Notes under the pieces: model-generated
Database searches by the model: none
What the model was told of the DNA's origin: nothing
Seen by the model: the letters and a program-made list of their open reading frames with translations, nothing else
Part shown: positions 2,218 through 22,200 of the stretch, one piece after another
Position numbering within the stretch: the first letter of the stretch is position 1
Layout of the letters: the number at the start of each line of letters is the position of its first letter
Assembly: GCA_012032555.1 (NCBI GenBank)
Contig: JAAUSR010000021.1
Span: 1-64,000 of the forward strand
Direction of reading: 5' to 3'
DNA length: 64,000 nucleotides
Source: Thioploca sp.
GTDB lineage: Bacteria > Pseudomonadota > Gammaproteobacteria > Beggiatoales > Beggiatoaceae
Program-made: the position numbers and the translations under genes

Positions 2218-2496
2218 TTAATTTTTATCCATTCTACCAATGGCACAACTGACGAAAGATTTACCTTTGGCTTTAAGAGATGTTAAACCCGCTACCGAGC
2301 CCTTTTCGGGATAACCTAAAGAAAGTAAGGTATAGGCAATTTGTTCATGTTGCAGATTATCTCCTTCTACAGTAACTAACCCTTGTTCAACATCAACATT
2401 AACCGCTCGAATTTCAGATATTTTTAATAAATTACTTTCGATTGTTTTCGCACAACCTTGACATTTAATATTTTCAACCGCAATCATTTCTTGCAT
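2218..2496 (-). CDS. Heavy-metal-associated (HMA) domain protein, CopZ-like
   Basis: 92 residues. The N-terminal two thirds form an HMA ferredoxin-like fold: MIAVENIKCQGCAKTIES carries the metal-binding CxxC (Cys13, Cys16), followed by VNVDVEQGLVTVEG and a helix leading to LGYPE. Such domains bind Cu(I), Zn or Cd and pass it to transporters or enzymes in the cytoplasm. About 27 residues after LGYPE are extra compared with a minimal copper chaperone (about 66-70 residues) and include one more Cys. The gene is 51 bases downstream of the Cas6-like gene on the same strand, so co-transcription is likely. No copper ATPase or regulator is in the window, so the metal is unknown. Confidence 0.85.
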   Translation of the reverse strand: MQEMIAVENIKCQGCAKTIESNLLKISEIRAVNVDVEQGLVTVEGDNLQHEQIAYTLLSLGYPEKGSVAGLTSLKAKGKSFVSCAIGRMDKN

Positions 2497-2547
2497 AGTA
2501 ATATACTCCTAAAAAAAATGACAATCGTTTACTATTCCCGGTTATAG

Positions 2548-3234
2548 TTAATTCTTATCTGGATTAACGGGTTTAATATCTTTATGAGGGATAAATAAAC
2601 CACAGCCCATTTTTCTCCCCGATCCTAAACCTTGTTGTTGTAACATCAAAGAATCAGATGGTTTTAGATCCGCGATCATGAGGCTACGAGTAAATAATTC
2701 ACCTTCTGGTAATTTAAAATAGTGGGTTTTACCACACAGTGCTTTACGGCAAGGTATTCCCAGCAATTCTAGTTGCATAACAACCTGCTCTAAAAAAATT
2801 TCTTCATCCTGTTTGGGATCAGCAATAACATGTCGTGCCAATAGAACTGGCATTGGATTAAGCGGTTTTTCTACTGCTTTATTCACCGTGAGAGAATAGC
2901 CCGCAATATCTAAATTTAGGTTAGTTAAAGCCCGTGTTGCTGCTGTTATTCGATATTGCGGCAAACGTAAAGTGAGCTTAGTACGACGCGATAAGTACAA
3001 CAGTTCATCTTGACCGTTAGGACGATACCAACCATTACCAGATTCAGCACCGTGAATCAGATGTAATCCAGCTTGTAGTTCTTGTTCAAACCACGGCAAA
3101 CTCTGTTGAATTGTTTGCGACAACGCATAGGCATGATCAACTGGCAAACATTGACAATGGATATCAAAAACTAAATCTACTATTTCTGGAGATAACTTAA
3201 TTTCTTTTGGAGAGACTTCTTCTTGCCACAACAT
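2548..3234 (-). CDS. Cas6/Cmx6-like RNA-binding protein, orphan (no CRISPR array in window)
   Basis: 228 residues. It resembles the type I-MYXAN Cas6/Cmx6 family: an N-terminal LPVDHAYALSQTIQQSLPW segment, a GLHLIHGAESGNGW segment, a first RRTKLTLRLP strand, and a C-terminal glycine-rich loop GLGSGRKMGCGLF characteristic of Cas6/RAMP proteins. Cas6 enzymes cut pre-crRNA in CRISPR repeats using a poorly conserved histidine; I cannot assign a catalytic residue here. No CRISPR array, other cas gene or spacer-like repeat occurs in the 64 kb. The gene is instead bracketed by a 59-residue protein (stop 4 bases upstream) and an HMA metal-binding protein. It may therefore be a domesticated RAMP protein with a non-CRISPR RNA substrate. 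Family call moderately confident; function open. Confidence 0.7.
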   Translation of the reverse strand: MLWQEEVSPKEIKLSPEIVDLVFDIHCQCLPVDHAYALSQTIQQSLPWFEQELQAGLHLIHGAESGNGWYRPNGQDELLYLSRRTKLTLRLPQYRITAATRALTNLNLDIAGYSLTVNKAVEKPLNPMPVLLARHVIADPKQDEEIFLEQVVMQLELLGIPCRKALCGKTHYFKLPEGELFTRSLMIADLKPSDSLMLQQQGLGSGRKMGCGLFIPHKDIKPVNPDKN

Positions 3235-3238
3235 AATA

Positions 3239-3418
3239 TTAGTAAAAAGCAGCTTCTAAGCGATCTTCCCAATTTTCTGGAGTATCTGGAAAAGAAGGAC
3301 GAACATCTATCCTGAAAAAACGTTCGCCTAATTGAGATTGTTGCTTAATCATTTCAACCAATTCTTCAAAATTTTGCAATTCATGATGTTGAATTAGAAT
3401 TTCACTGAGATACAACAT
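3239..3418 (-). CDS. Small 59-residue protein upstream of the Cas6-like gene
   Basis: ATG at 3416-3418, stop TAA at 3239-3241, four bases before the ATG of the Cas6-like gene. The sequence starts MLYLSEILIQHHELQNFEEL and ends in a Trp/Phe-containing tail (ENWEDRLEAAFY). It is acidic, probably helical, and has no signal peptide or membrane segment. I do not recognise the family. Very tight spacing to the Cas6-like gene and normal codon use argue that it is a real translated gene and a functional partner of that operon. Confidence 0.65.
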   Translation of the reverse strand: MLYLSEILIQHHELQNFEELVEMIKQQSQLGERFFRIDVRPSFPDTPENWEDRLEAAFY

Positions 3419-3939: not shown

Positions 3940-4818
3940 ATGAGTGAAACAGTTATAGAAAATAAACCTTATAAAAGTCCCATCCAACCGACAAAATTAT
4001 CTTTAAATGATACGCTGCAATTTCGGTGTCATAAAGATATAACTTGCTTTAACGAATGTTGTAAAAAGATTGATATTTCACTGACTCCTTATGATATTTT
4101 ACGTTTGAAAAAACGTTTAAGTCTCACTTCTGATATGTTTTTAACACAATATACTGTTCCTTATGAAATGGACGCTCAAGGCATGCCAGGGGTCAAAATT
4201 CGGACAGCTGATGATAATCTTATTTGTCCATTCCTTCGAGAGGTGGGTTGTAGTGTCTACGAAGATCGTCCTTCAGCCTGCCGGTATTATCCATTAGGCT
4301 TACTCTCCATGCGTCAACAAGATTCTACTACTGATGAAAATGCCTATTTTTTAGTTAAAGAGGACCATTGTCTTGGACATAATGAACCCCGTACACTACC
4401 CATAAAAGATTATCGTCATGAACAAGAAGTTGATATTTACGATGAAATTAATCGTGAATGGCGACAAATCATTCTGAAGAAACGTTCTGCTGGACCAACT
4501 ATCGGTAAACCAACTTTAAGAAGTTATCAATTTTTCTTTTTAGGTAGCTACAATTTAGATAGATTGCGAAGCTTTGTACTAAGCCAAGGTTTTTCAGAAA
4601 TTTATGATTTAGATGATGAAACCTTGGAACAACTTATCCAGGATGATGTTACCTTGTTGAGATTTGGCTTTAAACTACTTAGACAAGTTTTATTTGGAGA
4701 AATGACTATTCCGCTCAAAGAGGATGCTATGCAAACCCGGGTACAGCGGCGACGCGAGACAAATCAGGTTGATCATGATAATCCTAATAGTGATTATCAA
4801 GGGCCATTAGTCGTTTAA
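3940..4818 (+). CDS. YkgJ/UPF0153-type cysteine-cluster protein
   Basis: 292 residues. Residues 26-120 hold the zinc/iron-chelating CxxxCxxxCC-type cluster: FRCHKDITCFNECCKKID, then CPFLREVGCSVYEDRPSACRYYPLG. This CxxCxxCC / CPFL...C.vYe.RP..CR.yP arrangement is the signature of the YkgJ family, putative metal-binding or Fe-S proteins whose biochemical role is not established. The C-terminal 150 residues are a charged extension without a domain I recognise; such extensions occur in several proteobacterial members. The start is supported by AAGGAG about seven bases upstream of the ATG. It is transcribed alone; the next gene is convergent. Confidence 0.8.
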   Translation: MSETVIENKPYKSPIQPTKLSLNDTLQFRCHKDITCFNECCKKIDISLTPYDILRLKKRLSLTSDMFLTQYTVPYEMDAQGMPGVKIRTADDNLICPFLREVGCSVYEDRPSACRYYPLGLLSMRQQDSTTDENAYFLVKEDHCLGHNEPRTLPIKDYRHEQEVDIYDEINREWRQIILKKRSAGPTIGKPTLRSYQFFFLGSYNLDRLRSFVLSQGFSEIYDLDDETLEQLIQDDVTLLRFGFKLLRQVLFGEMTIPLKEDAMQTRVQRRRETNQVDHDNPNSDYQGPLVV

Positions 4819-19528: not shown

Positions 19529-21835
19529 CTAAGAATTACACCATTTCTTCAGCACCTCTTTTGTAAATGGTTTTTCACCCCGTTGCAGCGCCTCAACCCA
19601 ACCTTGCCTTTGCTTTTTAAATTCGTTATCATCAGATTTTTCAATTGCAAACTGAAAATCTGCAATCGCACCTGGAATATTACCCGTCAACGCTCTTGCT
19701 AAGGCACGGTTATCTCGAACATTCCATTCTTGCGGTGCAAGTGCTACGGCTTTCTCGCAAACCACCATCACTTTAGCAGCTTGCCCATAAATACTCCCAT
19801 ACCGACAAAGTCTAGCCCACTGAGCAACAGAATCTTTCAAATCCACGTTTAATTGCTGGGCGGTTTGAAACTCAGTTAAAGCGGCGTCGATTTCTCCTTT
19901 CCGAGCAAGTTTTTCCACTGTCGGTATGAATGTCAGAAACGCTAGTTGCTGGGCATAATGTTCTGGGTTATCTAGTTTGAAACGGGAATCTATAGCTAAG
20001 GCTTGTTGGAATTCAGCCACCGCAACGGAAATTTTACCTTCTTTAGCCCAAGTCTTACCTTGGTCTATTCTCGCTTGGGCGGCGAGTTGTTTGGCTTGAG
20101 CTTCTGGATTAAATTTAAAGCAGAGTGCAAGTGCTTTGGCTTGTTTAAATTGCGCGATAGCGGCGGGAATCTCCCCATCTTTCGCTAGTTTTTTGCCTTG
20201 TTCCAGCAAATTATCAGCCTTAGAGGGTGGTAAGAAAAACTCTTGGCGTTGTGTTGGTGTTAAACAACGGGGTACGAGGCTATTAGCATGATCAATGAGT
20301 TCCGGCGTTGTCGTATTGAATGACCACCATAGCCGCACGGTCTTATCCCAACTGGCTGTGGCCAGCGTTTGGCCGTCGGGACTAAAAACCACGTCACGGA
20401 CATCGTCCTTATGCCCCGTTAAGGTATGTAACAGTTGGCCGTTGTTTACTGCCCACAGTCGCACGGTATTATCCCCACTACCCGTAGCCAGCGTCTGGCC
20501 GTCAGGGCTGAAAACCACGCTCCAAACTATATTCTCATGCCCCGTTAAAGTATGTAACAGTTGGCCGCTGTTTACCGCCCATAACCGGGCGGTCTTATCC
20601 AAACTCGCTGTAGCCAGTGTTTTTCCGTCGGAACTAAACACTGCATTCCAAACGACATCCTCATGCTCCTTTAAGATATGTAATAGTTGGCCACTATTCA
20701 CTGCCCACAATCGTACGGTTTTATCATCTGAAGTCGTGGCCAGTGTTTGGCCATCGGGACTAAAAACCACGTTATAGACGCCATCTTCATGCCCAGTTAG
20801 TGTTCGTAACAGTTGGCCGCTGTTTACCGCCCATAGTCGCACGATACTATCCGTTGAAGCCGTGGCCAGCGTCTGACCGTCGGGGCTGAAAGCCGCGTCA
20901 TAGACACTGCCATCATGCCCCGTTAAGACCTGTAACTGTTGGCCACTGTTCACCGCCCACAGTCGTGCAGTTCTATCATCTGAAGTCGTAGCTAGCGTCA
21001 GGCCATCTGGACTGAAAACTGCGCTATGAATCCCATCTTTATGCCCAGTGAGGATATGAAGCAGTTTACCACTATTCACCGCCCACAGCCGCGCGGTTCT
21101 GTCGTTTGAAGCCGTGGCTAGTGTCTGATTATCGGGACTAAAGTGTACACCCACCACACCACTATTATGCCCCGTTAAAATATGTAACAGTTGACCGCTG
21201 TTTACCGCCCACAGCCTAGCAGTGTTATCATCTGAAGCGGTGGCTAGCATTTGGCCGTCGAAACTGAAAACTGCATTATGGACATATCCTTTATGCCCCA
21301 TTAAAATATGTGACCGTTGGCTGTTGTTCACCGTCCACAGCCGCACGGTCTTATCCACCGAAGCCGTAGTTAATGTTTGGCCGTCGAGACTGAAAGCCAC
21401 GCTCAAAACTCTATCCTCATGTCCCATTAAGGTCTGTAATACTTGGCCGCTGTTCACTGCCCATAGCCGGGCGGTCTTATCCCAACTGGCTGTGGCCAGC
21501 TTCTGGCCGTCGGGACTAAAAACCACACTTAAAACGCTATTATTATGCGCAGCTAAGGTCTGTAATACTCGGCCATTTTTCACCGCCCACAGCCGCACAG
21601 TCCGGTCCTTACTCGCTGTGGCTAGCGTCAAGCCGTCGGGACTAAACACCGCGTCATAGATGTATCCTTCATGCCCAGTTAATATCTGTAACGACTGTCC
21701 ATTGTTCACTGCCCACAGCCGGGCGGTCTTATCCCAACTCGCCGTGGCTAGTGTTTGGCCGTCTGGACTAAAAACCACGCTCACTACTTTATCCTGATGC
21801 CCGGTTAAGATCTGTAGTGGTTGGCCGCTGTTCAC
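19529..21835 (-). CDS. WD40-repeat and TPR-like C-terminal half of a split TIR/WD40 protein
   Basis: 768 residues from GTG at 21835. Residues 1-505 are twelve WD40 repeats of 42 residues, each of the form VFSPDGQTLATASxDKTxRLWAVNxGQ. The rest is a helical TPR-like region with three units such as LLEQGKKLAKDGEIPAAIAQFKQA, and a terminal KEVLKKWC. This frame overlaps the end of the TIR gene by four bases. The repeat pattern runs straight across the junction, so the two frames were almost certainly one gene and this start is an artefact of a one-base deletion near 21861. If the lesion is real, this half may be untranslated. As one protein it would be the repeat-bearing, presumably ligand-sensing part of a membrane-bound TIR effector. 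Confidence 0.75.
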   Translation of the reverse strand: MNSGQPLQILTGHQDKVVSVVFSPDGQTLATASWDKTARLWAVNNGQSLQILTGHEGYIYDAVFSPDGLTLATASKDRTVRLWAVKNGRVLQTLAAHNNSVLSVVFSPDGQKLATASWDKTARLWAVNSGQVLQTLMGHEDRVLSVAFSLDGQTLTTASVDKTVRLWTVNNSQRSHILMGHKGYVHNAVFSFDGQMLATASDDNTARLWAVNSGQLLHILTGHNSGVVGVHFSPDNQTLATASNDRTARLWAVNSGKLLHILTGHKDGIHSAVFSPDGLTLATTSDDRTARLWAVNSGQQLQVLTGHDGSVYDAAFSPDGQTLATASTDSIVRLWAVNSGQLLRTLTGHEDGVYNVVFSPDGQTLATTSDDKTVRLWAVNSGQLLHILKEHEDVVWNAVFSSDGKTLATASLDKTARLWAVNSGQLLHTLTGHENIVWSVVFSPDGQTLATGSGDNTVRLWAVNNGQLLHTLTGHKDDVRDVVFSPDGQTLATASWDKTVRLWWSFNTTTPELIDHANSLVPRCLTPTQRQEFFLPPSKADNLLEQGKKLAKDGEIPAAIAQFKQAKALALCFKFNPEAQAKQLAAQARIDQGKTWAKEGKISVAVAEFQQALAIDSRFKLDNPEHYAQQLAFLTFIPTVEKLARKGEIDAALTEFQTAQQLNVDLKDSVAQWARLCRYGSIYGQAAKVMVVCEKAVALAPQEWNVRDNRALARALTGNIPGAIADFQFAIEKSDDNEFKKQRQGWVEALQRGEKPFTKEVLKKWCNS

Positions 21836-22200
21836 CGACCACAGTCTGGCGGTCTTATCATTGAAGCTGTAGCCAGCATCTGACTGTCTGGACTGAAAAC
21901 CACGCTGACTACTTTACCCTGATGCCCAGTTAAGGTATGTAACACTTGGCCGCTGCTCACTGCCCACAGTCGCGCGGTTTTATCATCTGAAGTCGTAGCT
22001 AGCGTCTGGCCGTCAGGACTGAAAACCGCGTTATTAACCCCACCTTCATGTCCAGCGAGAGTATGAAGCAGTTTGCCACTGTTCACCGCCCACAATCGCA
22101 CGGTTTTATCATCTGAAGTCGTGGCCAGCATTTGACCGTCAGGACTGAAGTGTACATTCAAAACGTTATCTTCATGCCCAATTAAGGCGTGCAGTAATTG
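20320..22200. repeat. 126-bp tandem repeats encoding WD40 blades
   Basis: About fifteen units of 126 bases (42 codons) run from the 5' part of the WD40/TPR frame into the 3' end of the TIR frame. Segments such as TGTAACAGTTGGCC recur exactly 126 bases apart (for example near 20425, 20551, 20803). Many units are highly similar at DNA level, which points to recent duplication or gene conversion. The long plus-strand open frames here are antisense products of this periodicity. Confidence 0.85.

Follow-up and report, generated by a model that had tools for sequence, protein, structure and literature searches.

A Cas6-family protein that follows the dsr genes of sulfur-oxidising Gammaproteobacteria irrespective of CRISPR

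A Cas6-family protein encoded on a contig of Thioploca sp. belongs to a group that is retained almost universally together with Dsr sulfur oxidation in the Gammaproteobacteria examined, usually beside the dsr genes, which suggests that an RNA-handling protein was recruited into sulfur metabolism. Within CRISPR, RNA processing is the known task of Cas6 proteins, which can also bind RNA without cutting it. The protein described here is almost certainly a dsr-linked family member put to a use other than CRISPR, the Thioploca sp. gene being its rearranged copy; judging by the sequences compared, it is most likely an RNA-binding or RNA-cutting protein of Cas6 type serving the dsr system. Observed are homology and fold, co-occurrence with dsrA in nearly all cases, a divergent position next to it, independence from Cas1, a single branch opposite the cyanobacterial relatives sampled, and conserved partners. 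In our reading, the reverse-Dsr sulfur oxidation of Gammaproteobacteria would have recruited this RNA-binding protein, probably an endoribonuclease, and would retain it independently of CRISPR. Were a single-copy Cas6 clade to track an energy-metabolism operon throughout a class whether or not CRISPR is present, it would clearly exemplify a CRISPR protein with a stable non-immune job; if true, a CRISPR RNA-processing enzyme would have turned into a housekeeping factor of energy metabolism in gammaproteobacterial sulfur oxidisers. Such a link points towards an unexplored layer of control over sulfur oxidation. There is also a consequence for annotation: members of the family score above the threshold of a model by which they are named type I-MYXAN CRISPR proteins, and one scan of species genomes gave at least 545 stretches that encode relatives.

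The window, that is, the whole stretch of 64,000 nucleotides that was analysed, carries three closely packed genes on its minus strand: p59 (3239-3418), coding for a conserved small partner protein of 59 residues; cas6 (2548-3234), coding for the dsr-linked Cas6/Cmx6-family protein of 228 residues; and a gene for an HMA-domain protein of 92 residues (2218-2496; PF00403, E 3e-12), a local neighbour outside the conserved cluster. The gaps are 4 bases between p59 and cas6 and 51 bases between cas6 and the HMA gene, as a preliminary description of this DNA had it. A gene for a CxxCxxCC protein (PF03692, E 4.9e-10), located at 3940-4818 on the plus strand and divergent from p59, was found at 4 of 80 related loci (L079, L080, L082 and L083), i.e. 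in close relatives only. The cas6 gene is present in a single copy in its own genome and lies on contig C138, and dsrA lies on contig C193, where it is divergent from a gene for a TauD-like oxygenase; thus, cas6 is not adjacent to dsrA here. The window shows a rearranged copy of the locus, in which p59 and cas6 stand together away from the dsr genes.

The 228-residue protein passed the curated cut-off of the NCBIfam model TIGR02807 (cas6_cmx6; 124.1 bits against 98.85, E 6.8e-36) as well as that of Pfam PF09559 (Cas6; 207.8 bits against 26.7, E 1.9e-61), and its sole sequence match among solved structures was the Cas6 of a type I-B CAST (8fcj, phmmer E 5.1e-13). An AlphaFold2 model computed from 63 aligned sequences (mean pLDDT 88.7, pTM 0.84) matched 8fcu_B with a Foldseek E of 1.1e-17 and a VIA Z of 23.6 (rmsd 2.2 over 194 residues); Cas6 chains filled the first seven VIA rows, with Z from 23.6 to 14.8, those after 8fcu_B scoring 16.7 to 14.8. 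Both its sequence and its fold identify the protein as a Cas6, and the profile comparison that the preliminary description had asked for bears out its Cas6/Cmx6-like assignment. His34 was found in all rows of three alignments (A1, A2 and A3, of 41, 63 and 17 rows, respectively). Arg84, Arg90 and Lys218 are invariant in A1 and A2, as are Gly68 and Trp69 of an insert, ESGNGWxRP, in the dsr-linked proteins; His58 is present in 40/41 rows of A1 and 62/63 rows of A2. Position 34, a candidate for the catalytic residue, is histidine in the dsr rows and in seven cyanobacterial rows and asparagine in the CAST Cas6. By homology, an RNA-binding role of the protein is likely. The invariance of His34 suggests that RNA cutting may be kept, and that of Arg84, Arg90 and Lys218 would fit a cutting or a non-cutting protein alike.

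The distribution of cas6 was analysed in 369 genomes of the class Gammaproteobacteria, using statistics that ignore relatedness. Matches to cas6 were found in 118 genomes, one in each (the two rows of G264 are two adjoining pieces). For dsrA, the model TIGR02064 matched 217/369 genomes at E ≤ 1e-3, other sulfite reductases included, 112 over the cut-off and 119 at E < 1e-30; the last threshold, which was used, was set after inspecting the list, in which no best value lies between 8e-19 and 6.1e-33. Both genes were present in 111 genomes (111/118 of those with cas6 and 111/119 of those with dsrA), cas6 only in 7, dsrA only in 8 and neither in 243, giving a phi of 0.907 with relatedness ignored. 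The two genes lie on different contigs in 28 of the 111 genomes and on one contig in 83; 81 of these 83 pairs are separated by no more than 10 kb (602 to 4463 bases), every one of them in divergent orientation, and in G109 and G325 cas6 is far from dsr on one contig, yet kept. Most exceptions (6/7 of the cas6-only and 6/8 of the dsrA-only genomes) occur at contig ends or on gene fragments. Among the cas6-only genomes, the cluster runs into the contig end in G067, G093, G127, G186 and G317, and G318 has a dsrA fragment at a contig end; the absence of dsrA from G299 has no such explanation. Among the dsrA-only genomes, dsrA is at most 0.7 kb from the contig end in G070, G110 and G207, the oxygenase gene and p59 are followed by the contig end in G123, and dsrA is represented by fragments alone in G079 and G238. 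At least 1.7 kb of upstream sequence lacks cas6 in G211 and G355 (completeness 86% and 88%), and these two are unexplained.

Among 299 genomes sampled from the phylum, 52 have dsrA (E ≤ 1e-30) and 4 have TIGR02807; the latter coincide with the dsrA genomes that belong to the class and include the genome of the window, and in the other three, cas6 is divergent from dsrA at a distance of 0.4 to 0.6 kb. All 48 genomes of this sample that have dsrA and lie outside the class lack cas6, therefore Dsr chemistry itself does not require it, and the association of cas6 with dsr is a gammaproteobacterial habit. Within the class, the two genes were present or absent together inside families: G000, G032 and G177 of family f1 have both and G284 neither, and G596 of family f107 has both and G107 and G224 neither. 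Five genomes of only 1.0-1.1 Mb (families f39 and f142) keep cas6 and have no Cas1 match.

The neighbourhood of cas6 was surveyed at 120 loci, some genomes being sampled twice. It contained p59 at 104 loci, a DsrC-like gene on the same strand at 95, dsrA on the opposite strand at 90, a gene for a TauD-like oxygenase at 86, and genes for a 68-residue and an approximately 230-residue protein at 52 and 47, respectively. In the usual order, the dsr operon points one way and the oxygenase gene, p59, the gene for the 230-residue protein (if present), cas6, the DsrC-like gene and the gene for the 68-residue protein point the other. A Pfam scan of one such locus (L047) assigned the oxygenase to PF02668 (E 1.2e-22) and the DsrC-like protein to PF04358 (E 1.2e-36) and found no family for p59 or for the 230- and 68-residue proteins. 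The p59 protein of the window had no NCBIfam match either, and a single weak Pfam match, to Cas8b_C, stayed below threshold (E 0.045, 14 bits against a cut-off of 27). The preliminary description had called it new, which holds in that no family matches it above cut-off; it is nevertheless a widespread protein, encoded in 79/266 genomes of the class, 78 of which also have Cas6, the remaining one being G123 with its contig end. It is missing from 10/88 genomes with cas6 (all 88 assumed to lie within the sample of 266) and was present at 72/80 related cas6 loci; p59 is a conserved partner of Cas6. The DsrC-like protein ends in KGGY in 86/86 distinct sequences, and 85/86 have no cysteine in the last 25 residues. 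By comparison, the DsrC of the operon has a cysteine within the last three residues in 69/71 distinct picks, and the other two end in KGGY and are therefore probably DsrC-like. The cysteine-less paralogue downstream of cas6 could compete with DsrC for DsrAB; cysteine-less paralogues of this kind have been called regulatory (RspA).

No CRISPR array was found in the window by a scan for exact 20-mers in three copies at a spacing of 45-100, which does recover the arrays of L159, a locus on contig C177 of the same genome; an Rfam scan gave nothing at gathering scores. Seven ORFs of the window were scanned for families, and the six other than cas6 contained no cas gene above cut-off. Thus, the cas3, cas8a1/cmx8 and cas7 genes of a type I-MYXAN system are absent from the ORFs scanned and an array beside cas6 is absent from the window; in the relatives, the neighbours of cas6 are dsr genes. 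The claim that CRISPR is lacking was correct for this neighbourhood and not for the genome, which has a type I-B CRISPR-Cas system with arrays elsewhere. Of three Cas1 matches in this genome, one is on C177, at a type I-B locus with Cas1, Cas5, Cas7/Csh2 and Cas8b/TM1802-type proteins and with 37-nt repeats at both ends; from reading the ORFs, cas2, cas4 and two cas3 genes were tentatively assigned there as well. Since Cas6b is encoded at this locus (PF17262, E 1.9e-31; PF17955, E 9e-15), it has a Cas6 of its own. Across the class sample, Cas1 was matched in 51/118 genomes with cas6 and in 85/251 others (phi 0.09, p 0.08), and 67/118 genomes with cas6 have no Cas1 match, including 8/12 that consist of a single contig. 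The presence of cas6 does not follow Cas1, and these counts, together with the Cas6b of C177, uphold the proposal that the Cas6-family protein is kept outside CRISPR. As separate observations, the two Cas3-like ORFs at L159 are accompanied by duplicated toxin-antitoxin-like gene pairs. In the window, positions 1-235 at the contig start hold three copies of an AT-rich unit about 100 bases apart, the third one shorter and with similar sequence between the copies, which the CRISPR-like repeat scan did not detect; at positions 20327-22146, a unit of period 126 is repeated in tandem (14.5 copies, 70% matches), a length that would suit protein repeats of 42 residues, for example WD40.

To place the family, a tree was built of 100 dsr-linked rows (several near-identical, with genomes sampled twice) and seven members from cyanobacterial plasmids, six of which lie beside cas3 and cmx8 or cas8a1. 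The tree is unrooted and its bootstrap had not settled; a branch with a support of 100/99 separates all dsr rows from the seven cyanobacterial Cas6. The dsr-linked Cas6 passes the curated cut-off of the type I-MYXAN model TIGR02807 and shares with that type a similar GxGxxRxxGCGxF end and His34, the latter common to 7/7 cyanobacterial members aligned. It differs from that type in the ESGNGWxRP insert, His58, Lys164 and Lys218, which are absent from all seven, in the lack of cas genes in the ORFs scanned and of an array in the window, and in its separate branch. The closest solved structure, the type I-B CAST Cas6 (8fcj, 8fcu), has 28-29% identity to the dsr-linked protein in structural alignment and a counterpart of His58, whereas it carries asparagine at the position of His34 and shows a gap of 9 residues where the dsr-linked protein has ESGNGW. 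As to the known gammaproteobacterial dsr cluster (dsrABEFHCMKLJOPNRS), cas6 occurs in the same genomes and usually in the same place, but in a separate cluster divergent from dsrA, with p59, the TauD-like oxygenase gene and the DsrC-like gene. A literature search, mostly outside subscription journals, returned no description of a Cas6 beside dsr, and none is given in the available parts of PMC5728499, PMC10952691, PMC5944118, PMC7540712, PMC3397948 and PMC3368242. A phage-borne auxiliary gene was also considered and rejected: none was confirmed in IMG/VR (37 pattern matches, with a filter that detects close relatives only), and 50,697 phage records gave no tblastn match to cas6 at E ≤ 1e-3. 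The seventh cyanobacterial member, L214 (plasmid pGMOR1 of Gloeobacter morelensis, 3974-4765), has no annotated cas neighbours; this TIGR02807 Cas6 lies near a gene of the PAPS-reductase family (CysH-like) and genes for unnamed proteins, a set reminiscent of those of type IV-B CRISPR.

Regarding the possible target, we consider it somewhat probable that the protein acts on RNA of the dsr system, and that it would do so with p59 and perhaps also with the cysteine-less DsrC paralogue. Gaps between the dsr operon genes are mostly short, with longer ones at dsrA|dsrB (median 90) and dsrC|dsrM (median 76). Hairpins of -12 kcal/mol or better were counted in these gaps and compared with the expectation from dinucleotide shuffles; exact duplicate gaps were removed, near-copies remain, and the class group includes a few operons of cas6-negative genomes (L160-L164 range). 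Hairpins were present in 67/79 gaps at dsrC|dsrM (3.5 expected) and 43/87 at dsrA|dsrB (1.7 expected), followed by dsrB|dsrE (13/64, 1.1 expected) and dsrH|dsrC (1/79, 0.1 expected). In the divergent cluster, the counts were 4/86 at cas6|DsrC-like (1.7 expected), 9/42 between the genes for the DsrC-like and 68-residue proteins (2.6 expected), 0/21 at oxygenase|p59 (0.4 expected) and 2/11 between the gene for the 230-residue protein and cas6 (0.2 expected). Only 8 of the 67 dsrC|dsrM hairpins have a U-rich tail, therefore most of them are unlike intrinsic terminators. The hairpins at dsrC|dsrM and dsrA|dsrB are candidate substrates of Cas6 and could be cutting or stabilising sites around the dsrB-dsrC segment. 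In the version that we prefer, Cas6 would bind or cut these hairpins at the two borders of the polycistronic dsr mRNA, with the outcome that operon segments, dsrEFHC above all, reach different levels; this version is put forward tentatively. An extended scheme is likewise speculative: with p59 and the cysteine-less DsrC paralogue, Cas6 might sense the state of sulfur oxidation and cut or protect the dsr mRNA hairpins, thereby setting the levels of DsrEFHC. Transcripts of dsrEFH and dsrC exceed that of dsrA in A. vinosum on sulfide (PMC3397948, citing Grimm et al.), and dsrC has an extra promoter of its own (PMC3368242), to which unequal dsr transcript levels can be due.

The hairpins were rejected as a Cas6-specific signature: Cas6-less operons outside the class have them at dsrC|dsrM (2/5), dsrA|dsrB (5/17) and dsrB|dsrE (2/3), and the dsrC|dsrM hairpin is missing from 12/79 gaps of the class, among them those of Cas6-bearing genomes, namely L053 and L055, whose genomes measure 1.1 Mb, and, from the family of the window, L174 and L175; the bases flanking the hairpins show no conservation. 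Such a distribution, which does not track Cas6, agrees with another reading, that the protein binds RNA without nuclease activity, or is an adaptor acting with p59 and the cysteine-less DsrC paralogue, and that its RNA is other than dsr mRNA (tRNA, a small RNA or its own transcript). The partners that travel with cas6, and the constant KGGY end and almost constant lack of C-terminal cysteine in the DsrC-like protein, are also in its favour, while the invariant His34 suggests that cutting may be kept; we regard this reading as possible, though not probable. That the linkage to dsr is an inherited gene order without a functional tie is unlikely. Vertical inheritance alone yields some co-occurrence, the correlation ignores phylogeny and G299, G211 and G355 are unexplained, but cas6 and dsrA come and go together within families f1 and f107, and cas6 is kept in the 1.0-1.1 Mb genomes and where it is far from dsr, on the same contig in G109 and G325 or on another one in the genome of the window.

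Still less probable is that the protein works in trans as an ordinary Cas6, processing the CRISPR RNA of an array located elsewhere in the genome. It scores above the threshold of TIGR02807, a model that takes its name from type I-MYXAN CRISPR, and its genome does contain arrays with cas1 on C177 and two further Cas1 matches; this locus, however, has its own Cas6b, more than half of the genomes with cas6 have no Cas1 match, single-contig ones included, and the dsr branch contains none of the seven cyanobacterial members sampled. The reading advanced in the preliminary description, a RAMP protein that controls a metal-related transcript from within a metal-linked operon, is hardly credible. It drew on the HMA gene 51 bases downstream of cas6, but the HMA protein of the window matched none of the 80 related loci (tblastn, E ≤ 1e-3), and inspection of nine near relatives by eye revealed no HMA gene among the ORFs that follow cas6 over 2.5 kb, by which a conserved operon with an HMA protein or copper chaperone is ruled out. 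What survives of that description is a Cas6 put to another use as a putative RNA-binding protein; its metal target does not, the link being instead to sulfur oxidation, as given by the phi of 0.907 with dsrA.

In the region upstream of dsrA, hairpins are only weakly in excess over the last 150 bases before the gene (10/88, 3.5 expected), and an alignment of this region revealed operator-like DNA palindromes, not a conserved RNA element. Among 82 unique intergenic regions (e.g. L102, L104 and L086), searched with spacers of 2 to 8, mostly 4, the best site for the palindrome TATCCC-N4-GGGATA has 0 or 1 mismatch in 52 and up to 2 in 72, counts obtained without a shuffled control. The palindrome is often followed by ACCCCATnGGTAGGGT and a -10-like TAGACT, and together these elements resemble an operator and a promoter from which the dsr operon would be controlled and transcribed.
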